Origin: Deltaproteobacteria bacterium
GTDB taxonomy: Bacteria > Desulfobacterota > Desulfobacteria > Desulfobacterales > SpSt-501
Assembly: GCA_016219005.1 (NCBI GenBank)
Contig: JACRCN010000031.1
Location: 62,001 to 126,000 of the forward strand
Direction: 5' to 3'
DNA length: 64,000 nt
In this document: in pieces, positions 2,961 to 64,000 of the stretch
How positions within the stretch are numbered: position 1 is the first letter of the stretch
Layout of the letters: each line of letters begins with the position of its first letter
Notes under the pieces: model-generated
The model's input: only the letters and a program-made list of their open reading frames with translations
The model's database searches: none
Told to the model about the DNA's origin: nothing
Translations under genes and position numbers: made by a program

Positions 2961-4694
2961 TCAGCCCTTGATGATCCGGGGCAGCATCATCTGGTGCTGG
3001 GGGCAGATGGAGCGCGGGTTCTGATAGGCGGCGCCGGCGAAGGCAGCGAGATAGCTGCGGATTTCTGTCATCCGGGCGACTTCGTCCACCATGCCGTGCT
3101 GAGCGCAATAGACCGGGCGCGATTTGTCGTGGTAGGACTTGACCAGCCGGTTCATCTCCTCGATCACCGGCTCAAGCGGCTTGCCGCTTTCCTTCTCCTT
3201 GACCAACCGGCGCGAATAGCTCGCAGCCGCGGCGGTCTCCCCGTGCATGACGTAAATTTCGGTCGTGGGGATGCCCAGGGTGAAGGCGTTGTGGCGGTTG
3301 GCTGTCGGCCCGCCCATGACGTAGTGGGCCGCGGCCGTGCCCTTACGCAGCACCACGAGCATCATGGGGACGTCGGTCTGCTGGATCGAGTAGATGAGTG
3401 ATTGGCCCAGGCCCAGCAGCTCCGCTTTCTCGGCGATGTCGCCGACGTCGATGCCGGTCGTGTCCTGGAACCAGATGACGGGCACGCGGTCGCGGCCGCA
3501 GTGCACCACGAACTCGTTCATCTTGATCAATCCCTGCCGGTAGAGCTTGCCCCCGATTCCGGGGTAGGAAGCGTATTCGGGGTACCCCTCGCCGAGAAAG
3601 CCCTGCCGGTTGCCGATGACGCCCACGAGAAAGCCGTCGATTTTGACCAGGCCCGTGTAGACCTCGGGGCCGTAGCCCGGCCGGTATTCCATGTGCTCGC
3701 TACCGTCCACCAGGCGCGCCAATACTTCGTCGAAGCTATACATCATCTTCTGGTTGAAGGGCACGAGGTAGTAGAGGTCCTCGGCAGGGAACCGCGGCTC
3801 GGCCGGCGCCGTTACGCGAAAAAATTTCGGGTGGTAGGCCGGCATGTCCTTCATGTAGTCCTTGAGGCCGTCCAACACCCCCTGCTCGGTGTCGTAGACA
3901 TATCGGAAGAAGCCGGTGGCGTCGTGGTGGGTCTTGACGGAGCCCGGGGGGTCGGCCTTGAACTGCTTGGCAGCTGCAATCAGCTGCTCGGCGCCCTCCA
4001 GGTCAAAAAACCCCTTGGGCGACATGCCGCTCAGGATCCCGCCGCCGCCGACAGCCATGTTCGCGTCCTTGTGGGCAAAGAGGATGGTGGGGCTGATGCT
4101 TTGGTAGCCGCCGCCGGCGGGGTTGGTTCCCCATACGCCGGCCAGGATCGGGACACCGGCCTGCTCCAACTCCGCGTGGCGGAAAAAAGTGGTGCCGCCG
4201 CCGCGGCGGTCGGCATAGAATTTTTCCTGCTCGGGCAGTTTGACGCCGCTGCAGTGCACCAGCCAGACCAGCGGAACATTCAGCCGTTTGGACAGATCCG
4301 TGGCCCGCAGAATGTTCTCCTGCTGGCCGGGCAGCCAGGCGCCTGCGAGCACTTTGTTGTCGAAGCCGATGACCACCGCCCATTTGCCGGAGATCTTGGC
4401 GAGGCCGTTGACCACGTTATTGGTGCCCTCTACGTTGCCGTGGGGGTTGTAGAGCGTGTTGAGCGGGCGCCAGGTGCCGGCATCGACCAGATAATCCAGG
4501 CGCTGCCAGACCGTGAACTGCCCGCGCTTGTTGATCTCTTTCTCGGGCAGCCCTGCGTTTTTGACCTTGGCGACGGCCGCGCCCATGCCGGCTTCCACTT
4601 CCTTGATCAACTTCACATTGGTTTCGCCGCTCTTGATCTTGCCGGCGGGCAGCACGCTGCCGAATTCCTTCATTTTCTCGAAGTACGGTTTCAT
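2961..4694 (-). CDS. gcdA: Glutaconyl-CoA decarboxylase alpha-type carboxyltransferase
   Basis: 577 residues, close to the length of GcdA, the carboxyltransferase subunit of the sodium-pumping glutaconyl-CoA decarboxylase; such enzymes move the carboxyl group between the acyl-CoA and biotin. Family hallmarks are seen along the chain: TWRPLNTLYNPHGN (near 74), RRGGGTTFF, GTNPAGGGYQSISPT, the C-terminal-domain tract IGGKLYRQGLIKMNEF, and RKGTAAAHYVMGGP. Both halves of the crotonase-like fold are complete. A divergently transcribed 71-residue biotin carrier begins 250 bases away, which supports biotin-dependent chemistry. No membrane beta subunit (GcdB) is in view. In related sulfate reducers such proteins act in glutarate, benzoate or amino-acid breakdown; propionyl- or methylmalonyl-type substrates cannot be excluded. 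The start has a GAGGGAGAGG ribosome site. Confidence 0.88.
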   Translation of the reverse strand: MKPYFEKMKEFGSVLPAGKIKSGETNVKLIKEVEAGMGAAVAKVKNAGLPEKEINKRGQFTVWQRLDYLVDAGTWRPLNTLYNPHGNVEGTNNVVNGLAKISGKWAVVIGFDNKVLAGAWLPGQQENILRATDLSKRLNVPLVWLVHCSGVKLPEQEKFYADRRGGGTTFFRHAELEQAGVPILAGVWGTNPAGGGYQSISPTILFAHKDANMAVGGGGILSGMSPKGFFDLEGAEQLIAAAKQFKADPPGSVKTHHDATGFFRYVYDTEQGVLDGLKDYMKDMPAYHPKFFRVTAPAEPRFPAEDLYYLVPFNQKMMYSFDEVLARLVDGSEHMEYRPGYGPEVYTGLVKIDGFLVGVIGNRQGFLGEGYPEYASYPGIGGKLYRQGLIKMNEFVVHCGRDRVPVIWFQDTTGIDVGDIAEKAELLGLGQSLIYSIQQTDVPMMLVVLRKGTAAAHYVMGGPTANRHNAFTLGIPTTEIYVMHGETAAAASYSRRLVKEKESGKPLEPVIEEMNRLVKSYHDKSRPVYCAQHGMVDEVARMTEIRSYLAAFAGAAYQNPRSICPQHQMMLPRIIKG

Positions 4695-4783
4695 CTCTTG
4701 GTCCTCTCCCTCTTCAATGGGTCAGCTGCGATAGGGTGGGTGCCATGCCACCTCGGACGGCAGACAGAAACAACTCCACCCGT

Positions 4784-4813
4784 CTATTAGCGGAAACGCC
4801 CGGTGCGCGTCAA
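4784..4813 (-). promoter_or_regulatory. Sigma-70 promoter for gcdA
   Basis: On the minus strand TTGACG (4808-4813) is followed after 18 bases by TAATAG (4784-4789), giving a leader of about 80 bases to the ATG at 4694. The spacer repeats the GGCGTTTCC string seen in the HD-GYP promoter. It overlaps back-to-back with the biotin-carrier promoter 25 bases to the right. Confidence 0.6.
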
Positions 4814-4837
4814 GGCCGGATTCCACGCATTGGCTGC

Positions 4838-4866
4838 TTGACATTCGACGCCCCTTCCAGTATCAA
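4838..4866 (+). promoter_or_regulatory. Sigma-70 promoter for the biotin carrier gene
   Basis: TTGACA (4838-4843) and TATCAA (4861-4866) are separated by 17 bases. The start of transcription would be near 4873, about 70 bases before the ATG at 4942. The first bases, TTGACATTCGACG, are the same as in the dnaJ promoter. Confidence 0.65.
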
Positions 4867-4941
4867 GCCACATTCATTCGTGTGGCGCAAGCCCCGCGGC
4901 ATGCTCGCGACTCAGCAATATCTCATAGGAGGTGAGACGTC

Positions 4942-5157
4942 ATGGCCAAACAGATTGAGGCTCCGATGCCGGGCAAAGTCATCGATATCCTGGTGAAAGA
5001 AGGGGAGACCGTGCTGGAGTATCAGGATGTGCTCATCCTGGAGGCGATGAAGATGGAAAACGCCATCCCCGCGCCCGAGGCTGGCAAGGTCAAGGAGATC
5101 AAGGTGAAGAAAGACGACGTTGTCTCCACCCGGCAAGTGCTAATGGTGCTGGAGTAA
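4942..5157 (+). CDS. Biotin carrier protein (biotin/lipoyl attachment domain)
   Basis: A 71-residue protein that is nothing but a biotinyl domain. The biotin-accepting lysine is in the canonical EAMKMEN motif (near residue 37), and the flanking APMPGKVIDILVKEGE and APEAGKVKEIKVKKDD strands complete the two-fold barrel. A strong AGGAGGTGAG ribosome site and a good promoter precede it. GcdC-type carriers usually have an Ala/Pro-rich linker in front of the domain; here that linker is missing. It is divergent from gcdA and is the obvious carrier for it, receiving carboxyl groups from the GcdA-type subunit. It could equally serve another acyl-CoA carboxylase. Confidence 0.93.
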   Translation: MAKQIEAPMPGKVIDILVKEGETVLEYQDVLILEAMKMENAIPAPEAGKVKEIKVKKDDVVSTRQVLMVLE

Positions 5158-5235
5158 ACCGCCGCTTTTAGGCTCCCCGCCTGTAGTGAACGCGAAAGAC
5201 CCGGCAGCATCCGGGACTTTCGCGTTTTGTCCGAT

Positions 5236-6546
5236 TCACGCCGCGGCCCAGTCGCCCGGCGCCACCCGGCGCACCGTGTCAAGCGCCCCCGAGAGGACCT
5301 CCCCCTTCAGTCGCGCCGCAAGCGCAGCCTCCAGCATCTCCGGCCGAATCACGACATTGAGCTTGGCCAGCACCCCCAGGGATGCCAGGGCCCAGTCCTG
5401 CGGCTTGAAGCCCTGGGCCTTGAAGTCCACCCGGTGGATTCGGGCTGCGCCTGCCGGAATCTCCACGCCGGCGGCCTGGATCACCACGCTTGCCGCCGTG
5501 AGGGTCTCGAAGATTTTCCGGCGCCGTGCCACGCCCTCCGGCCCCAGCGCCACCACCACCGTAGGCTGGCTCATGCCGGTGTACCCGATCGCCTCCGGGG
5601 ACAGGACCAGCTCGCTGATCGAAGGCCCCCGCAGGACGGTGATGTCGTAGTCGTTTTTCTGGGTGGCTTTCAGGCCGGCGTACAGACCCGCCAGGCAGAG
5701 CAGCTCGCCCGCCGTGAGGATGCGCTGGCCGGCGCTGCCGAGCAGCAGCACTTCCTGGCGCACGGCGCTGACGGGCGCGAACCGCGGGGTCACGGCGAGC
5801 GGGGGCGGGACCGCTCGCTGGGCTGCTGCGAGTTCGCGGTAGTGTTCTCCGAATTCACGGCGCTGGTTTGCGGCGATCAGACCCTCGGCCGGGGCGAGCC
5901 GGCCGACTGACTCCTCGATGGCCTTGGGTGTCAGGCGGTTGCGTTTCGAAAACCGGCCCGGGCAGATCCCCCAGATATCCACTACCGCAAACCCCTTGAA
6001 CTCGATCGCGCGCTGGATAACGTCGGGCAGATCGTTGCGGTAGGCCGAGCAGCGGACCCCATACGGGGCACCGGCCGCCTTCGCCACCTCGCACACATCC
6101 AGAGGCCGCTCCAACTGGTTCAGGAAACCCGAGCCCACCGCGGCGCCCGGCGGGGTGGTGGCGGAGTACTGGCCGCCGGTCATGCCGAAGTTGAAATTGT
6201 TCAGAACCAGAAGCGTCAGGTTCAGGTTGCGGCGGCAGGCCGCCAGCAGGTGGGCCCCGCCGATGCCTTGGCCGCCGTCGCCCATGGTGACCACCACCGT
6301 GAGCTCCGGCCGGGCGAGCTTGAGCCCCGCCGCATAGGTCAGGGCCCGGCCGTGCAGGCCGTGCAAGGCATGGGTGTGGAAAAAGGTGTCGAACAGCCCC
6401 GAGCAGCCGATGTCACTCACCATGCAGATCCGCTCGCCGGTGAGCCCCATCTGCCGAAAGGCCTTGTCCAGGGTGTGGGTGATGCGCTCGTGGGAGCAGC
6501 CCGGGCAGAACACCGGCGGCCGCGCCTCATTCAGTAAACTATCCAT
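5236..6546 (-). CDS. 2-oxoacid:ferredoxin oxidoreductase, beta-gamma fusion subunit
   Basis: 436 residues. The first 270 or so form the thiamine-diphosphate (beta) subunit: FCPGCSHE near residue 13, and the TPP motif from MGDGGQGIGGAHL (near 88) to VLNNFNFGMTGGQYS (near 115). After a linker of about 40 residues the rest resembles the gamma subunit (EVLLLGSAGQRILTAGELL, near 268), which in most organisms is a separate protein. Such complexes oxidise 2-oxoacids (2-oxoglutarate, branched-chain or aryl-2-oxoacids) to acyl-CoA and reduce ferredoxin in the cytoplasm. The start overlaps the end of the alpha gene by 8 bases, and GGAGG lies 10 bases before the ATG. No ferredoxin-like delta subunit is adjacent. 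The substrate cannot be read from the sequence. Confidence 0.85.
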   Translation of the reverse strand: MDSLLNEARPPVFCPGCSHERITHTLDKAFRQMGLTGERICMVSDIGCSGLFDTFFHTHALHGLHGRALTYAAGLKLARPELTVVVTMGDGGQGIGGAHLLAACRRNLNLTLLVLNNFNFGMTGGQYSATTPPGAAVGSGFLNQLERPLDVCEVAKAAGAPYGVRCSAYRNDLPDVIQRAIEFKGFAVVDIWGICPGRFSKRNRLTPKAIEESVGRLAPAEGLIAANQRREFGEHYRELAAAQRAVPPPLAVTPRFAPVSAVRQEVLLLGSAGQRILTAGELLCLAGLYAGLKATQKNDYDITVLRGPSISELVLSPEAIGYTGMSQPTVVVALGPEGVARRRKIFETLTAASVVIQAAGVEIPAGAARIHRVDFKAQGFKPQDWALASLGVLAKLNVVIRPEMLEAALAARLKGEVLSGALDTVRRVAPGDWAAA

Positions 6547-7657
6547 GGGTGACTGCCTCCAAAATGGTTTCCGGCGCGATCAGCTTGCCGTCCATCCGGC
6601 CGCAGAAGCTGACCACCCGGCCGGGCAGGACGCGTTCGATTTCGTGCACGTACTGGCCCAGGTTCATCTCCACCACCACGACCCGTTTCACGTCCCCGAC
6701 CGCACGCCGGATGGCGGCCTCCGGCACCGGCCAGAGAGTCTTGAGCACGAGCAGCGACACGGGCCGGCCCTGGCGGACCAGCATGCGGGCTGCGGCTCCG
6801 GCGGCCCGGGCGGTGACGCCGTAGGCGAGGATCAGGGTGTCGGCGCCTTCGGCCGGCACGTGTTCCACGAAGGAAAACCGCTCCACCGCGCCTTCCACTT
6901 TCTGTTTCATCCGGTCGAGCATGCGGGCGATCTCGGACGGCTCCGTGGTAATGTAGCCGTCCGGGCCGTGGGTCGACGAGGTCTGGCGCACGAGGGTCTG
7001 CCCGCCGATCGGCAGGAAGCCCGGCACCTGTTCGCCGGCTGCGGTCTGGAACGGGAGGTGGGGCCGGATGGCGGCCGGCGTGCGCTCGATGATCGGCGGA
7101 GCGTTTAGATGCTCCAACTCGACCGTCTCGCGGGTCATGGCGATTTCCTTGTTGGAGGCGACAAAGACCGGGCAGCGGTATTGCTCGGCCAGGTTGAAGG
7201 CGTGCACGGTGAGCGTGTAGCAGTCCGCCACGTCTGCAGGCGCCAGCACGATCACGGGCATGCCGCCGCTGTTGCCCCAGCGCAGGAAGTTGACATCCCC
7301 GTCCGCGCCCCGGGTGGCCGAGCCGGTGGAGGGCCCCAGCCGCTGGATGTCGACGATGACAATGGGGATCTCGCTGCCGACCGCAAAGGAGATCTGCTCG
7401 CTGTAAAGGCTGATGCCGGGGCCGGAGGTGGCCGTCAGGACCTTCATGCCCGCCATGGACGCGCCCAGGCACAAGCCGATCGAGGCGATCTCGTCCTCGC
7501 CCTGGATGCACACCCCGCCGAGCGGCGGCAGCATGGCCAGCATGTGATTTAAAATCGTCGTTGCCGGGGTGATCGGGTAGCCGGCGAAGAAGCGGCAGCC
7601 GGCCGCCACCGCCCCCCGGGCGATGGCCTCGTTGCCTTCCATCAGAGTCAAAGCCAT
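6539..7657 (-). CDS. 2-oxoacid:acceptor oxidoreductase, alpha subunit
   Basis: 372 residues with the family opening GNEAIARGAVAAGCRFFAGYPITPAT, which holds the conserved YPITP motif, then the pyrimidine-binding region around GEDEIASIGLCLGASMAG and TATSGPGISLYSEQ. The C-terminal 110 residues (about 262-372) form the transketolase-C-like domain. It pairs with the overlapping beta-gamma gene to form a KorAB/VorAB-type complex. GGGAGG sits 7 bases before the ATG. A possible promoter (TTGCAC at 7774-7779, 17-base spacer, TAAAAA at 7751-7756, minus strand) lies upstream. The exact 2-oxoacid is unknown; proximity to the glutaconyl-CoA-type carboxyltransferase suggests amino-acid or dicarboxylate oxidation, which is only inference. 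Confidence 0.88.
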   Translation of the reverse strand: MALTLMEGNEAIARGAVAAGCRFFAGYPITPATTILNHMLAMLPPLGGVCIQGEDEIASIGLCLGASMAGMKVLTATSGPGISLYSEQISFAVGSEIPIVIVDIQRLGPSTGSATRGADGDVNFLRWGNSGGMPVIVLAPADVADCYTLTVHAFNLAEQYRCPVFVASNKEIAMTRETVELEHLNAPPIIERTPAAIRPHLPFQTAAGEQVPGFLPIGGQTLVRQTSSTHGPDGYITTEPSEIARMLDRMKQKVEGAVERFSFVEHVPAEGADTLILAYGVTARAAGAAARMLVRQGRPVSLLVLKTLWPVPEAAIRRAVGDVKRVVVVEMNLGQYVHEIERVLPGRVVSFCGRMDGKLIAPETILEAVTHG

Positions 7658-58021: not shown

Positions 58022-59278
58022 ATGTTGAGAGAGCAAAAACCCATGGCAGAACCCGTTGAACCGTCATCCGCCGTCTGGCCCGCGGTTGAGATATCCCCGC
58101 GTGCGGCCAAGAAGATAGCCTCCGGGGTTTTGTGGGTCTATTCGAACGAGGTCGAGAGCCGGGACGAGCAGCCGGCGACCGCCTACCTGTGCCGCTTTAC
58201 GCGCAACGGCCGGGCGGTTGCAGCCGGCTACTTCAATAAGCACTCCCTGATCGCCGGCCGGGTGCTCACCTTCGGCGATGCGCCGGACCTCGATCGACTG
58301 GTCACCCGGCGGCTGCGGGAGGCCTTCGCGCGGCGGGCGACGGGCGTTGCCGGCGACGCGGCGCGGCTGGTCTTCTCGGAGGCGGACTTGCTCCCCGGGC
58401 TCGTGCTCGACTTCTACCCGCCCGATGCCGTCCTGCAGAGCGGCACCGCCGGCATGGACCTGCTGCTGCCGGTCCTGGAGGGCTGCGTGCCGCACCTGAT
58501 CGAAGAGGTGTTCGGCCATAAGCTGCAGGGACTGGTGGTGCGGTGCGATGCGGGTGTCCGCAGGCTGGAGGTGGTCGACATGTTCAGCCGGGTGTGCTTC
58601 GGAGACCGGGAGCGCCTGGCCCTGGCGACCGTGGCCGAACACGGAGTGCGGGTGGTCGCCGATCTCGTCGGCGGCCAGAAGACCGGCTTCTTCCTCGACC
58701 AACGGGACAACCGCCTGTTCTTGGGCAGCCGGGTGCGGCAGATGCCCGGCGCCCGCGTGCTGGATCTCTTCTGCTACTCCGGGGGATGGGGACTGCGGGC
58801 GCTGCGGGAAGGCGCCGGGCACGTGACCTTCGTCGACCAGAACCGTGAGGCCCTGCATCTGCTCGAAAAGGGCTTGGCCGCCAACGCGGTCCCGCCGGAG
58901 GCCGCCGAGCCCGTCCGGGCGGATGTCTTCGAGTTCCTCGCCCGCGATCAGGCGCTCTATGACGTGGTCGTGGCGGACCCGCCGGCGTTCGTCAAATCCC
59001 GGAAGAACCTGGCCCAGGCGATCAAGGCCTATCAGAAGCTCAACCGGCTGGCCTGGCGCCGGGTCAGGCCCGGCGGACTGTTGATCACCTGCAGCTGCAG
59101 TCACCACCTGGCCGAGGGCGATTTCCTCAACCTGCTGGCCGCCGCTGTCGCCCGGGAGGAGGGGCTGGCCCAGATCGTCCACCGGGGCGGGCAGGCCGCA
59201 GACCATCCGGTTCTGTTGTCCATGCCCGAGACCGCCTATCTCAAGTGCGTCGGGCTTCTGAAAATGAAACCGGAATGA
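58022..59278 (+). CDS. Class I rRNA (cytosine-C5)-methyltransferase, RlmI-like
   Basis: 418 residues. An N-terminal PUA-like domain (about 20-95: AAKKIASGVLWVYSNEV) is followed by the RlmI central domain (DLLPGLVLDFYP) and the SAM-dependent Rossmann fold: VLDLFCYSGGWGLRAL (near 247), FVDQNREAL, VVADPPAFVKSRK (near 318) and the catalytic region LITCSCSHHL (near 357). RlmI methylates cytosine in 23S rRNA. A second in-frame ATG at 58043 is a possible start. Solitary gene, divergent from glgP. Confidence 0.9.
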   Translation: MLREQKPMAEPVEPSSAVWPAVEISPRAAKKIASGVLWVYSNEVESRDEQPATAYLCRFTRNGRAVAAGYFNKHSLIAGRVLTFGDAPDLDRLVTRRLREAFARRATGVAGDAARLVFSEADLLPGLVLDFYPPDAVLQSGTAGMDLLLPVLEGCVPHLIEEVFGHKLQGLVVRCDAGVRRLEVVDMFSRVCFGDRERLALATVAEHGVRVVADLVGGQKTGFFLDQRDNRLFLGSRVRQMPGARVLDLFCYSGGWGLRALREGAGHVTFVDQNREALHLLEKGLAANAVPPEAAEPVRADVFEFLARDQALYDVVVADPPAFVKSRKNLAQAIKAYQKLNRLAWRRVRPGGLLITCSCSHHLAEGDFLNLLAAAVAREEGLAQIVHRGGQAADHPVLLSMPETAYLKCVGLLKMKPE

Positions 59279-59463
59279 CGTCGGGGCATGCAATGTCAAT
59301 CGGGTGCAACATTTTGCTTGCTTTTGAATTGCGTCTGTCATATCGGGTCTCGTCGGTCCGGGACCCGAACGCCGGCCGGAGAGCACCCCGCCCCTGAGGC
59401 CTGGGCGCACTCCTGCCCGTTTTGGCCTCGACACGATGGGCTCAAAGCGGAAAGGATAAGCCC

Positions 59464-60723
59464 ATGACCGCCACTCATAAAGATTTTTATTTCTTCAGCG
59501 AGTTCCTGGCGCGCAAGCTGTACCACCCGGACGGCAGCTGTCTCGGCCGGGTCGTCGACCTGGTCGCCGAGAGGGTCGAACCTTACCCGGTGGTGACGGG
59601 CCTGATGATCCGCCGGGGAGTTCGGGGGCCCAGGGCGTTTCTGCCATGGTCCGCCGTGAGCCGTATCGACCCGCACCTCATGGTTTCCCCGGATTCGATC
59701 CAGCAGTCCGAAGCGCCCGAGCGCGGTGGGAAAATGGCATTTCTGCGGGAAGAGGTCCTGGACAAGCAGATTGTGGACACCTTCGGCGCCAAGGTCGTCC
59801 GGGTCAATGATCTTCAGTTTCTGAGCCTCGAATCCCAACTGCGGCTGGTGCATGTGGATGTGGGGTTCCGCGGGCTGATGCGCCGGGTGGGCTGGAAAAA
59901 TTGGGTCTCCGCGGTGCTGCGCTGGTTGTTTGCATACGAACTGCCCGATCATTTCATCCCGTGGAAGTATGTTCAGCTCCTTTCCGCCGGCTCCGGCCCC
60001 CTGCATTTGAGCGTCTCCCAAAAAAAGCTCGGACAGCTTCATCCTGCTGAGTTGGCGGACATCCTTGAGGATTTAGGCGGCCGCGACAGGTCCGCGATTT
60101 TTCATGCCCTGGACACCGAAACCGCGGCGGACACCCTGGAGGAAATCGATGACCCCAAGCTGCAGAAGGCCCTGATCGAAACCGTTACCGTTGAGAAAGC
60201 CTCCGACATCATCGAGGAAATGTCGGAGGCCGACGCGGTCGATCTGCTGGCGGACTTGCCTCAAGATACCGCCGATGAAATCCTGGACAGTATGGAAGAG
60301 GAGTGGGCGGACGATCTCCGGGAGCTTTTGGTTCACCCGGAGGAAACCGCCGGCGGCATGATGACCACCGCCTATCTCGGTCTGGCGCCCGACATGACCG
60401 CGGCCGCCGCCTGGCAGCATCTGAGGGATGATGCGATCGACCTGGAAGTCATCGATTATGTGTATGTGGTGGATGGGCAAGACGTGCTGCAGGGGGTGGT
60501 GAGCATCCGCGACTTGCTCACCAGCCCGCCGCAGAAGTGCCTCGCCGACATTCAGTCCTCCCGGCTGGTCACGGTCGCACCGGACGCGGACAAGGACGAG
60601 GCCGTCGAATTGCTGGCCAAGTACGGATTCAAGGCCCTGCCGGTCGTGGACGAGCAAAATCGCCTGACGGGAGTGATCAGCTTTCGCAGCGCGCTGGAGG
60701 TCTTGGCTCCGGATGCCGGCTGA
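59464..60723 (+). CDS. Soluble PRC-barrel / MgtE_N / CBS protein
   Basis: 419 residues without any membrane helix. Two PRC-barrel-like segments (about 8-75 and 90-170: YHPDGSCLGRVVDLVAE, FGAKVVRVNDLQFL) precede an MgtE N-terminal helical domain (about 185-285: LHPAELADILEDLG, ADAVDLLADLPQDTADEIL) and a pair of CBS domains (about 290-415: ETAGGMMTTAYLGL, YVVDGQDVLQGVVSIRDLL, LPVVDEQNRLTGVISF). These are the magnesium-sensing domains of the MgtE channel without the channel. The Nramp-related transporter starts 111 bases on, on the same strand, so this is probably its cytoplasmic regulator. AAGGA precedes ATG 59464. Confidence 0.88.
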   Translation: MTATHKDFYFFSEFLARKLYHPDGSCLGRVVDLVAERVEPYPVVTGLMIRRGVRGPRAFLPWSAVSRIDPHLMVSPDSIQQSEAPERGGKMAFLREEVLDKQIVDTFGAKVVRVNDLQFLSLESQLRLVHVDVGFRGLMRRVGWKNWVSAVLRWLFAYELPDHFIPWKYVQLLSAGSGPLHLSVSQKKLGQLHPAELADILEDLGGRDRSAIFHALDTETAADTLEEIDDPKLQKALIETVTVEKASDIIEEMSEADAVDLLADLPQDTADEILDSMEEEWADDLRELLVHPEETAGGMMTTAYLGLAPDMTAAAAWQHLRDDAIDLEVIDYVYVVDGQDVLQGVVSIRDLLTSPPQKCLADIQSSRLVTVAPDADKDEAVELLAKYGFKALPVVDEQNRLTGVISFRSALEVLAPDAG

Positions 60724-60834
60724 CGAAGGCGCGCGGCGGTTTCACCGCCGTCCCGGCGGCCCTGCGGCGTATGCCGGCATGAACCCTTCGCGCGTTGCGG
60801 CTGCCGCTTTTCCGGATTCCTGGGGATATGACGC

Positions 60835-62097
60835 ATGCACGCATATTGGAAATGGATGGCCAACCCGAACAGGCCTTTTTGGAAGAACCTCAGCCTTTTC
60901 TTCATCCTCATGGGCCCCGGGATCATCACCTCGAACGTGGACAACGACGCCGGCGGCATCACCACGTATTCCCTGGCGGGCGCCCAGTATGGGCTCAAGT
61001 TGATCTGGTTGCTGATCCCGATCATGATTTCCCTGATCGTGGTGCAGGAAATGTGCTCGCGCATGGGAGTCGTGACCGGCAAGGGCCTCTCGGACCTGAT
61101 CCGCGAAAAGTTCGGCGCCAAGATCACGTTTTATCTCATGATCGGCATGTTTCTGACCAACATGGGCAACGTGATCTCGGAGTTCGCCGGGGTCGCCGCC
61201 GGGATGGAGGTGTTCGGCGTCAGCAAATTCATCTCGGTGCCCATCAGCGCCGTTCTGGTCTGGGCCATGGTGGTCAAGGGCACCTACAAGCAGATTGAGA
61301 AAATTTTCCTGGCGGCCTGCGTGTTCTACATCGCCTACGTCGTCACGGGCGTCATCGTGAAGCCGGATTGGAGCGAGGTCCTGGGCCAGTTGGTCCACCC
61401 CCGATTGAGCCTCGATCCCTCCGAGATGACCATGGTCGTCGGTCTGGTCGGAACGACCATCGCGCCCTGGATGCAGTTTTATCTCCAAGCCTCCATCGTC
61501 GAGAAAGGCATCCGGATGGACGAGTACAAATTCGCCCGGTTCGACGTCGTCATGGGCTCGATCGTCGTCCACGTGGTGGCCTTCTTCATCATCCTGGTCT
61601 GCGCCGAAACCCTGCACAAGCACGGCATCGCGATCGAAACCGCCAAGGACGCCGCGCTTTCCCTGGCCCCGCTGGCGGGTGATTACTGCACTTTCCTGTT
61701 TGCGTTCGGCCTGGTCAATGCCTCCCTGTTCGCCGCCTCCATCCTGCCGCTGTCCACCACCTACCTGATCTGCGAAGGGCTGGGGTGGGAAACCGGGATC
61801 GACAAGAAGTTTGTCGAGGCGCCCGAGTTCTACGGGTTTTACTCGTTGATGATTTTTCTCGGGGCGGGCATCATCCTGCTGCCCGGCATGCCGCTGATCG
61901 CCATCATGTATGTCTCGCAGGTCATCAACGGCATCGTGCTGCCGGTGGTCCTGATATTCATCCTGCTGCTGGTCAACGACCGCAACCTGATGCAGGATCA
62001 CACCAACGGCCCGCTGTTCAATACCGTGGCCTGGCTGACCACGGTGGTGATGATCGTTCTGACGGGGGTGCTTCTCGTGGGAACGCTTCAGGCGTGA
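60835..62097 (+). CDS. Nramp-related divalent metal transporter
   Basis: 420 residues, 10 to 11 membrane helices, SLC11/Nramp fold. Helix 1 carries SNVDNDAGGITTYSLAGAQY where classical Nramp has DPGN, and helix 6 has TIAPWMQFY where classical Nramp has MPH, so the metal-binding methionine is replaced by alanine. These changes are expected for Nramp-related magnesium transporters and argue against manganese or iron as the substrate, although this is inference. GGGGA lies 8 bases before the ATG. Its partner is the upstream soluble MgtE_N/CBS protein. It converges with the DHS-like gene. Confidence 0.88.
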   Translation: MHAYWKWMANPNRPFWKNLSLFFILMGPGIITSNVDNDAGGITTYSLAGAQYGLKLIWLLIPIMISLIVVQEMCSRMGVVTGKGLSDLIREKFGAKITFYLMIGMFLTNMGNVISEFAGVAAGMEVFGVSKFISVPISAVLVWAMVVKGTYKQIEKIFLAACVFYIAYVVTGVIVKPDWSEVLGQLVHPRLSLDPSEMTMVVGLVGTTIAPWMQFYLQASIVEKGIRMDEYKFARFDVVMGSIVVHVVAFFIILVCAETLHKHGIAIETAKDAALSLAPLAGDYCTFLFAFGLVNASLFAASILPLSTTYLICEGLGWETGIDKKFVEAPEFYGFYSLMIFLGAGIILLPGMPLIAIMYVSQVINGIVLPVVLIFILLLVNDRNLMQDHTNGPLFNTVAWLTTVVMIVLTGVLLVGTLQA

Positions 62098-62226: not shown

Positions 62227-63243
62227 TCAGCCGAACAGCTTGCTCCACTCGCGGCGCTTACGCTTTTTCCAGCCCTTCTGGTGGTAGAGGTGGCTTACGA
62301 TGAGCGGCACAACGGTGGTGGCCTCGGCGAACACCATCTGCTCGTAGGTCGTGTCCACCTTGCCCCAGGAGGCGGCCTCCTTGAGGGTCGAGCTCGAGCA
62401 GGCGCCATCGCGCGCGTCGGCCACCGTGATCTGCACGGCGTACTGGTGCATGGGGACTTGCCTGCCGAGCACCTCGGCGCAGATGACGGTGTCCTGGACG
62501 AAGTTCTTGGGCACCCCGCCGCCGATCATGAAAAGCCCTGTGGCCTTCGCCTCCATTTTGATCCGGGTCAGTTCGTAAAAATCGCGCACGGAATCGATGC
62601 TCACATGCTGTTCGGGGCGGTCAATCTGGTGCTTGACCAGGCCGAAGCCGGCGCTCGAGTCCGTGAAGGCCGGGCAGAAGATCGGCACGTTGTGCCGGAA
62701 GGCGAGCTCGACGAGAGAGCCCTTTTTGACGGCGTGCCGGGTCAGGTAGCGGCCCATCTCGCGGATGAACTCCCGGGAGGAGGTGGGCCGGGGCTCCAGG
62801 CCATCGGCAATTTTCTTCACGGTCATGTCACAGGTCTGCAGCTGCCCCTCGTCGATGTAGGTGTCGTAGATCCGGTCGATGTAGTGCTTGCGCAGCTCGC
62901 GGTCGTCTGCGAAGGGGCTGCCCTGATAGTGCTTGAACCCCAGGGCTTCGAAGAAGTCCATGTCCACGATGGCCGCACCGGTCGACACCACCACGTCCAC
63001 CATGTTGTACCGGATCATGTCGGCATAAACCTGCATGCAGCCGCCGGCGCTGGTGCTGCCGGCCAGCGTAAGCACGATGGTGCAGCCCCGGTCCCTGAGC
63101 ATGCGTTCAAGGATGTCGGCCGCGGCGGCCGTGTCCCGCGAGCTGAAGGACATCCCGCGCATGGCCGCGATGATGGGGGTGGCGTTGAACGACGCGATGT
63201 CGACGTGCTTGACCGTCTTCTTGAGCAAGCCTTTCTTCTGCAT
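62227..63243 (-). CDS. Deoxyhypusine synthase-like protein
   Basis: 338 residues. Bacteria lack eIF5A, yet this protein keeps the deoxyhypusine synthase fold: TLAGSTSAGGCMQVYADMI, VSTGAAIVDMDF, FCPAFTDSSAGFGL and the catalytic lysine motif EAASWGKVD (near 307). Bacterial homologues are reported or suspected to act on polyamines, for example in homospermidine-type synthesis from spermidine or putrescine. It lies 5 bases after the agmatinase gene on the same strand, which strongly supports a polyamine role. GAGGGAT precedes the ATG. The real substrate cannot be told from sequence. Confidence 0.88.
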   Translation of the reverse strand: MQKKGLLKKTVKHVDIASFNATPIIAAMRGMSFSSRDTAAAADILERMLRDRGCTIVLTLAGSTSAGGCMQVYADMIRYNMVDVVVSTGAAIVDMDFFEALGFKHYQGSPFADDRELRKHYIDRIYDTYIDEGQLQTCDMTVKKIADGLEPRPTSSREFIREMGRYLTRHAVKKGSLVELAFRHNVPIFCPAFTDSSAGFGLVKHQIDRPEQHVSIDSVRDFYELTRIKMEAKATGLFMIGGGVPKNFVQDTVICAEVLGRQVPMHQYAVQITVADARDGACSSSTLKEAASWGKVDTTYEQMVFAEATTVVPLIVSHLYHQKGWKKRKRREWSKLFG

Positions 63244-63248
63244 GCGGA

Positions 63249-64000
63249 TTATCCCTCGAACCGGTAACTCAATAGTTTGTAAATCAATTTCGCCGCCAGA
63301 AAATCCGGCGCTTTGTCATGCTCGCCGGGGCACAGCTCGACCACATCGAAGCCGACGACGCGGCAGCGGCGGCTTACCGCCCGCAGGAGCCGGGTGACGT
63401 CGTACCAGAACAGGCCGCCCGGCTCGGGTGTCCCCGTGGAGGGCATGAGCGCGGGGTCAAACACGTCCAAGTCGATCGTGATGTAGCAGTTCTTCCCCAG
63501 CCGCGACACCCGCGACACCACCGCGTCGATCCAGCCGGGGGTCTCGGCCATCTCGTGCGCCCAGAACACACTTGCGTCCGGGAGGCTCTGGCGTTCGCCG
63601 GCGTCCATGCTGCGGATGCCGACCTGAACGATCGGGCAGAGCTCGCGCACGCGGGCCATGACGCAGGCGTGGTTGAAGGGGCTGCCCTCGTACGCGTCCC
63701 GCAGATCGGCATGGGCGTCGAGCTGCAGCACGCACAGATCCGTATGGCGCGCCGCGTGAGCCTGGACGGCGCCGATGGTCACCGAATGCTCGCCGCCGAC
63801 GGTGACGACGAACTGTTCCCTCTCAAGGCAGTCCGAGACCCGCTGGCGCACGGCGGCGACCATGGCCTCCGGCGTACGGTTTTCGGTGACGGGCTCGGCG
63901 GTGAAAATGCCCCGGCGGTAGACCTCGCTTCCGGTCTCGATGTCGTAGAGTTCCATGTTGGCCGAGGCCGCGATGATGGCCGCCGGGCCTTTATCGGCGC
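63249..64000 (-). CDS. speB: Agmatinase / ureohydrolase family, 5' end outside window
   Basis: About 250 residues visible; the frame is open through the right edge, where KGPAAIIAASANMELYD precedes the internal Met at 63956, so that Met is not the start. Manganese ligands of the arginase fold are present: VTVGGEHSVTIG, LQLDAHADLRDAYEGS and TIDLDVFDPALMPSTGTPEPGG. Agmatinase makes putrescine and urea from agmatine. It is followed by the DHS-like gene; an arginine decarboxylase might lie further upstream, outside the window. Confidence 0.9.
   Translation of the reverse strand, partial: ADKGPAAIIAASANMELYDIETGSEVYRRGIFTAEPVTENRTPEAMVAAVRQRVSDCLEREQFVVTVGGEHSVTIGAVQAHAARHTDLCVLQLDAHADLRDAYEGSPFNHACVMARVRELCPIVQVGIRSMDAGERQSLPDASVFWAHEMAETPGWIDAVVSRVSRLGKNCYITIDLDVFDPALMPSTGTPEPGGLFWYDVTRLLRAVSRRCRVVGFDVVELCPGEHDKAPDFLAAKLIYKLLSYRFEG

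Follow-up and report, generated by a model that had tools for sequence, protein, structure and literature searches.

A probable two-protein magnesium importer, in which a soluble MgtE-like sensor accompanies an NRMT transporter at the mgtE locus of a Deltaproteobacteria genome

We analyzed a stretch of 64,000 nucleotides from a Deltaproteobacteria bacterium (assembly GCA_016219005.1, contig JACRCN010000031.1, positions 62,001 to 126,000; hereafter the window), in which a gene for an MgtE-like sensor (P0001, 59464..60723, +) precedes one for an Nramp-related magnesium transporter (NRMT; P0002, 60835..62097, +). The genes are co-directional with a spacer of 111 bases, and both open reading frames (ORFs) were recovered where an earlier note on this DNA had placed them. 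Our preferred reading, to which we assign a probability of roughly 0.62, is that the pair constitutes a two-protein magnesium importer that was acquired horizontally and replaced mgtE, with the sensor providing feedback control in trans. P0002 would import Mg2+, possibly with some Mn2+, and P0001 would be its dedicated cytosolic sensor. The MgtE_N-CBS half of the sensor would read cytosolic Mg2+ (perhaps also ATP) and close at high Mg2+, and its tandem PRC-barrel half, specifically PRC2, would dock on the transporter's cytoplasmic face or on the adjacent membrane. Such Mg-dependent closing would hold the transporter in a low-activity state, which amounts to feedback inhibition in trans. The cassette would have arrived by horizontal transfer, displaced mgtE at the same locus and kept part of the mgtE leader.

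The sensor comprises 419 amino acids arranged as a tandem PRC-barrel, a linker, an MgtE_N domain and a CBS pair. Pfam places MgtE_N at residues 192-294 (60037..60345, +; 83 bits) and the CBS pair at residues about 295-419 (60346..60720, +; 67 bits), with no match to the MgtE membrane domain (PF01769) in the Pfam scan of P0001 and a score of 155.5 bits against the NCBIfam MgtE equivalog TIGR00400, under its cut-off of 232.75. No plug helix follows the CBS pair, as the protein stops at residue 419, right after CBS2; P0001 is predicted to be soluble, with neither plug helix nor channel. The AlphaFold model has a mean predicted local distance difference test score (pLDDT) of 89.8 and a predicted template modelling score (pTM) of 0.59, the latter being attributed to the flexible linker at residues 177-183 (pLDDT below 50) that joins the two halves. 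The C-terminal half folds like the cytosolic domain of MgtE (Foldseek 2YVY, E 5e-21; VIA-align Z 26.2, root-mean-square deviation (rmsd) 2.9 over 240 residues). The N-terminal half, modelled separately with a pTM of 0.84, is predicted to be a tandem PRC-barrel (residues about 1-176; 59464..59991, +), and it is this part that the earlier note overlooked when it described MgtE_N and CBS parts lacking a membrane domain, a description that Pfam otherwise bears out. The closest fold to residues 7-175 is CdpB1/CdpB2 (8QZO_F, Z 12.2, rmsd 3.3, 130 residues), after which single PRC-barrels rank next, including 1PM3; PRC1 alone matches the PRC domain of reaction-centre subunit H with Z about 6. The likeness to CdpB is one of fold only, since sequence identity is 13-18% and the setting differs. 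Pfam PRC (PF05239) scores 22.2 bits on the N-terminal part alone, against a cut-off of 21.2, and 19 bits, under the cut-off, on the whole protein, and it is matched by all 40 sensor family members scanned. PRC2 carries a helical insert at about residues 135-156. Our search found no literature joining PRC-barrels with MgtE.

The transporter, of 420 amino acids, scores 330 bits against Pfam Nramp, and its closest solved relative is EleNRMT (7QIA, E 1.2e-109 over 403 residues), with the best classical MntH further away (E 4.6e-28). The NRMT signature consists of DxxG in helix 1 and TxxA/T in helix 6 (PMC8806188), and P0002 displays both, as NDAGG and as TTIAPW within TTIAPWMQ, which confirms the replacement of the DPGN and MPH motifs of an Nramp-fold protein that the earlier note had reported. 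The helix-6b histidines are likewise replaced in both proteins, by W and L in P0002 where EleNRMT has W and N in the alignment. Judged by its sequence, P0002 is thus a member of the NRMT clade. EleNRMT differs in having been studied alone, and a sensor partner is not mentioned in the accessible parts of that paper (PMC8806188).

The partnership of the two proteins is supported above all by their distribution, which we followed in 446 genomes, namely 247 of the same phylum and 199 of a second phylum (that of an Acidobacteriaceae record); the genomes are kin by descent and do not represent independent observations, and for this reason Fisher values calculated on the counts should not be taken as probabilities (G, L and f numbers below denote genomes, loci and families in our set). 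Within the window's own phylum, a sensor was called at 199 bits or more to P0001, given that MgtE channels match only its MgtE_N-CBS part and reach at most 145 bits. A sensor was found in 55 of the 247 genomes (three of them, in G117, G133 and G158, cut at a contig end), an NRMT in all 55, and neither gene in the other 192. In 54 of the 55 the NRMT was matched by the search, and in the last (G048) it is an NRMT gene end on the sensor's contig, with 63% identity over 164 residues to another NRMT. The second phylum, with an NRMT threshold of 440 bits, repeats this pattern: sensor and NRMT occur in the same 56 of 199 genomes, 142 have neither gene, and one (G395) has an edge-truncated NRMT alone. 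All 111 sensor genomes of both samples therefore have an NRMT. Weaker Nramp matches were read by motif: 18 in 16 non-pair genomes of the second phylum included one true NRMT, that of G395, and the others, as well as all four in three own-phylum genomes without a sensor (G011, G125 and G176, where the NRMT motif is absent), are DDPSG-type, DPGN or other Nramps; inside pair genomes, a part of the second-tier matches was read in this way.

The pair is frequently but not always linked. Among the 54 placed pairs of the own phylum, 36 have the sensor followed by the NRMT, 8 are convergent, 2 have the NRMT first and 8 lie on different contigs; some of these 8 are contig breaks (in G133 and G143 a gene sits at a contig edge), and others are genes inside longer contigs (G103). 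In 30 of the 56 pairs of the second phylum the genes are adjacent (with the sensor leading in 19 and the NRMT in 11); in 12 they are separated by 0.7-5.6 kb, in 2 by 100 and 199 kb, and in 12 they lie on different contigs, some because of contig breaks. A third view comes from NRMT loci in named genomes, of which we took the best 80 of 585 confirmed matches. A complete or partial sensor gene adjoins the NRMT in 73 of them, and in 4 a contig end truncates the upstream side (a sensor match exists in 2 of these genomes and in neither of the other 2, G256 and G258). The remaining 3 have no sensor within 5 kb in either direction (2.3 kb in one direction at L233), although all 3 genomes have a sensor elsewhere. 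Because genomes of two phyla repeatedly contain homologues of both genes together, the gene pair is beyond chance, and the two-gene partnership suggested by the earlier note, together with the conservation by which it proposed to check it, is well supported, unlinked cases included. The note had named a lack of conservation as grounds for refutation, and this did not come true. This near-exclusive co-occurrence, with 0 of 111 sensor genomes lacking an NRMT even where the genes are unlinked, also bears on the idea that the sensor controls another partner, such as CorA, a kinase or some other system, and is connected with the NRMT only indirectly. CBS modules are versatile, and the own genome holds two CorA-family genes, but given the distribution we regard this as very improbable.

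Some observations on the genes of the pair and their relatives accompany these counts. Sensor-NRMT gene fusions were absent from the best 80 of 585 NRMT loci, and some long frames there are stop-to-stop frames with the sensor in another frame. The sensor frame is split into two ORFs at L181:3714-4920 (+) and L204:3632-4949 (+), which may reflect a sequencing error, a pseudogene or a split such as that told for C. acetobutylicum. Stops lie inside eight Acidobacteriota sensors; the six that were read (all but G446 and G422) end near the model end and give no sign of recoding. Second NRMT-like paralogues with altered sites (DNDAGAV, ENDGPSM) occur at L261, L262 and L263, in Acidobacteriota that also have an ordinary pair. 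At L142, an Nramp of another clade (3885-5258, -; DDDPSGIGTYS, not an NRMT) has two small genes upstream (5940-6398 and 6495-6878, -), assigned by eye as PRC-barrel-like, which is perhaps another PRC-Nramp association. Three loci have a match to the PyrR binding site directly in front of the sensor, on the other strand (L168:3472-3576, L170:3445-3547 and L176:3438-3542, all -).

The presence of the pair goes along with a scarcity of the MgtE channel. In the own phylum, 4 of 55 pair genomes have channel domains, as do 143 of the 192 others; in the second phylum the figures are 11 of 56 versus 105 of 143, or 5 of 56 versus 104 of 143 once seven genomes with a weak, short sole match, chosen by hand, are set aside. 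The contrast persists at close range: within 11 mixed families, 0 of 20 pair genomes have MgtE versus 32 of 36 others, and all 9 informative families show the same direction, MgtE being absent with the pair (counting genomes with a shown family code plus the six genus relatives, with 29 match-less genomes outside the listing). The own genome, 98.5% complete, gave no match to the MgtE channel. The sharpest case of replacement is the window itself. In four genus relatives, a single contig carries an rlmI-like gene, mgtE and a deoxyhypusine-synthase-family gene, and in the other two the order is the same up to the ends of their contigs, so that mgtE occupies this locus in all six (complete in five, cut by the contig in G004). 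The window has the sensor and NRMT genes in its place. Moreover, the stretch at 59343..59475 (+) shares 76-81% identity with the leader that precedes mgtE in four of the six; the homology ends within the first four codons, and the window retains the 3' end, not the start, of a short ORF that the relatives have upstream of mgtE.

The sensor gene itself almost certainly did not descend from this local mgtE. P0001 shares 61-65% identity along its whole length with sensors from families f16 and f47 and only 32-35% with the MgtEs of the genus, and in a tree of 41 sensors and 22 MgtEs it groups with two f16/f47 sensors at 100%, apart from the genus MgtEs. The same tree splits sensors from MgtEs once, with weak support (40), and so does not establish a single sensor origin. 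The possibility that P0001 is a decaying remnant of mgtE, lying by chance beside an unrelated Nramp, would explain its position at the mgtE locus and the partly common leader; its placement in the tree, the PRC-barrels in place of a channel, the intact ORF and the recurrence of the architecture across phyla make it scarcely credible, and we rejected it. A contaminant contig is also unlikely, although 4.7% of the own genome is contaminated: the flanks are syntenic with the genus relatives, with best matches at about 79-82% DNA identity. Taken together, the swap at one locus, the leader identity and the closeness of the sensor to those of other families lead us to infer that the cassette was gained horizontally and that mgtE was lost from this locus.

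The short upstream ORF deserves mention in its own right. It is present in all six relatives (L281-L284, L286 and L287; e.g. L287:3544-3669, +), is conserved, with 37-41 codons and the form M(N/Q)xGDPGSSPxHR..., and ends shortly before mgtE, which makes it a candidate Mg-responsive leader peptide. The stretches that carry these leaders in the genus have no Rfam match up to E 1, and in a full-text literature search the word mgtE was absent from the matches listed (12 of 83). At 59340-59396 of the window, the ORF end ...NAGRRAPRP* remains before the sensor and the start with the GDPGSSP part is gone, as if a stretch of the leader had been lost at the swap. Apart from this, L279:1155-2213 (+) encodes a short MgtE-like protein whose match to the sensor model is confined to the CBS part and is followed by a hydrophobic C-terminal part, and several Acidobacteriota, some with the pair, have short MgtE-like proteins with weak PF01769 matches in frames of about 330-440 amino acids.

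As to the metal, 13 of the 56 distinct NRMT loci scanned have a magnesium riboswitch (M-box, RF00380) upstream on the same strand. These loci were chosen by hand from the best 80 of 585, for spread and to cover Geobacter-like members, so the figure of 13 of 56 should not be taken as an unbiased rate. The carriers are three Firmicutes, one unplaced bacterium and nine Geobacter-like bacteria or Deltaproteobacteria; the distance from the M-box to the first gene is less than 0.4 kb at 12 loci and 1.2 kb at L240, and the NRMTs at these loci are 53-60% identical to P0002. Magnesium as the probable substrate, which the earlier note had proposed, is thus supported indirectly, by the NRMT signature, the M-box before related operons and the displacement of mgtE. 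Part of the published evidence points elsewhere, as the transporter of A. capsulatum rescued a Mn uptake mutant fully and Mg uptake partly (Shin et al. 2014, PMC4072509), and EleNRMT carries Mn2+ too (Ramanadane et al. 2022, PMC8806188). Such data would suit a pair that handles manganese or several divalent metals, with an MgtE-like module that senses Mn2+ or divalent metals in general, and the NRMTs of Acidobacteriaceae/Terriglobia are, at 57-60% identity (best 80 of 585), as near to P0002 as the M-box-bearing ones. We nevertheless consider such a manganese or broader divalent-metal system quite unlikely here in view of the DxxG-TxxA site of P0002, the magnesium riboswitches found in front of related operons of Geobacter-like bacteria and Firmicutes, the mgtE at the same place in the genus relatives, and a second Nramp with the classical DPGN/MPH motif elsewhere in the own genome.

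How the sensor might act can be approached through the magnesium-binding residues of MgtE. In the channel, Mg4 (D91/D247) links the N domain to the plug, Mg5 (D226/D250) links CBS to the plug, Mg7 (E59) links the N domain to CBS, and Mg6 uses D95 (PMC5882242). The N domain and CBS pair of T. thermophilus MgtE (2YVX/2YVY) are homologous to those of the sensor, in which E59 and D95 correspond to D223 and D260 of P0001. The 55 own-phylum sensors retain D95 in 55, E59 as E/D in 54, D91 in 28, D247 in 26 and D226 in 8; the respective counts among 58 sensors of a second alignment (A3, overlapping the former in part) are 58, 45, 42, 39 and 7, and those among 22 MgtEs are 18, 18, 21, 19 and 17. The N-CBS bridge residue (Mg7) is therefore largely kept in sensors and the CBS side of the Mg5 plug bridge largely lost, with D91 and D247 intermediate, and the loss of D226 with retention of the Mg7 residue is what a plug-less sensor would be expected to show. 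Among the ATP-site residues, most sensors retain Y170 and, as R or K, R187. Unlike the MgtE channel, the sensor has relaxed plug-bridging residues (Mg4/Mg5) and no plug helix, so gating in trans, though plausible, cannot be MgtE's own gating. The added PRC-barrels may provide the contact. PRC2 is the slowest-evolving module (mean distance 0.96, versus 1.09 for MgtE_N, 1.28 for CBS and 2.23 for PRC1), the PRC tandem tracks NRMT distances best (Pearson 0.71, versus 0.51 for MgtE_N and 0.61 for CBS, over 63 sensor-NRMT pairs), and R140 and R141 in PRC2 are kept in all 58 sensors of A3. For these reasons we propose PRC2 as the part that may dock on the transporter or on the adjoining membrane.

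A different role for the same protein would be that of a metal chaperone or buffer, or of a factor that controls the amount, folding or turnover of the transporter with no gating. Chaperone activity was named as an alternative by Shin et al. (PMC4072509), and since PRC-barrels serve in unrelated settings (RimM, reaction-centre subunit H, CdpB), the contact may have another use. What the sensor has retained, however, is the very module by which MgtE turns Mg2+ into channel closure, with the residues of the N-CBS magnesium site, and we hold a role of this kind to be unlikely, though worth keeping in view.

Several further points, beside the A. capsulatum transport results, weigh against feedback control of a magnesium importer in trans. 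P0001 itself has A, G and S at the positions of D91, D226 and D247, the retention of D95 may be structural, and the ATP-site residue F227 is frequently L in sensors. The correlation of modules with NRMT is weaker by rank (Spearman 0.46 for PRC, 0.36 for MgtE_N and 0.34 for CBS) and confounded by shared ancestry, which leaves the module result suggestive. Neither an M-box nor another Rfam element reaches the gathering score in the window, none appears up to E 1 in 59200-60900, and no M-box was found in the close relatives L163 and L165. Three NRMTs (G395, G256 and G258) have no detected sensor in their assemblies, each of these NRMTs being cut at a contig edge, and four own-phylum and five to eleven of 56 second-phylum pair genomes also hold MgtE channel domains. 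With two CorA-family genes in the own genome, the pair need not be its sole Mg importer. Lastly, Ca_c0685 restored Mg uptake in B. subtilis without the fragment (PMC4072509) and EleNRMT functions alone in liposomes (PMC8806188), so the sensor is dispensable for transport, and a co-expressed MgtE-like partner gave no better Mg rescue by the A. capsulatum transporter (PMC4072509). NRMTs working alone and the lack of a co-expression benefit in B. subtilis fit a brake rather than a required subunit; neither proves it.

The pairing itself is already known. Shin et al. 2014 (PMC4072509) coined the name NrmT, noticed that most members have a gene resembling the N-terminal cytoplasmic domain of MgtE in their genomic neighbourhood, and suggested, as speculation, that this fragment serves in feedback regulation or as a chaperone, leaving its role unknown. 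The idea of the earlier note is therefore not new: its observation is confirmed and enlarged, and its interpretation is partly supported. Like Ca_c0685 and Acp2976/Acp2977 of that study, the window has an NRMT gene adjoining such an MgtE-like gene; some members of this kind have an M-box, which is not a required feature, and the window has none. Our analysis adds the co-occurrence of unlinked genes, the rarity of the MgtE channel, the swap at the mgtE locus within a genus and the PRC-barrel half, which are not told in the accessible parts of that paper. No later literature about the MgtE-like fragment was found among the matches listed, as far as these could be seen. The near-exclusive co-occurrence and the natural mgtE swap yield a sharp feedback-control hypothesis for a fragment that Shin et al. 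left unexplained, with a likely docking part (PRC2, R140 and R141). We judge the chances evenly balanced that the system is, in full, a detached MgtE magnesium gate with a membrane-docking PRC tandem, rewired to a LeuT-fold transporter as an obligate, mobile two-protein importer that substitutes for mgtE, here at the same locus and behind part of the mgtE leader. If feedback control in trans is true, one Mg-sensing gate would serve two unrelated transport folds, acting in cis on one and in trans on the other.

The genes flanking the pair served as synteny markers and lie outside the system. Upstream is the gene for an RlmI-like rRNA methyltransferase (58022..59278, +), and downstream that of the deoxyhypusine-synthase family (62227..63243, -). 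The latter stands beside an arginase-family gene (62227-63956, -, for both), and the two also adjoin mgtE in G002, G003 and G005, which likely makes them a polyamine gene pair next to the magnesium locus.

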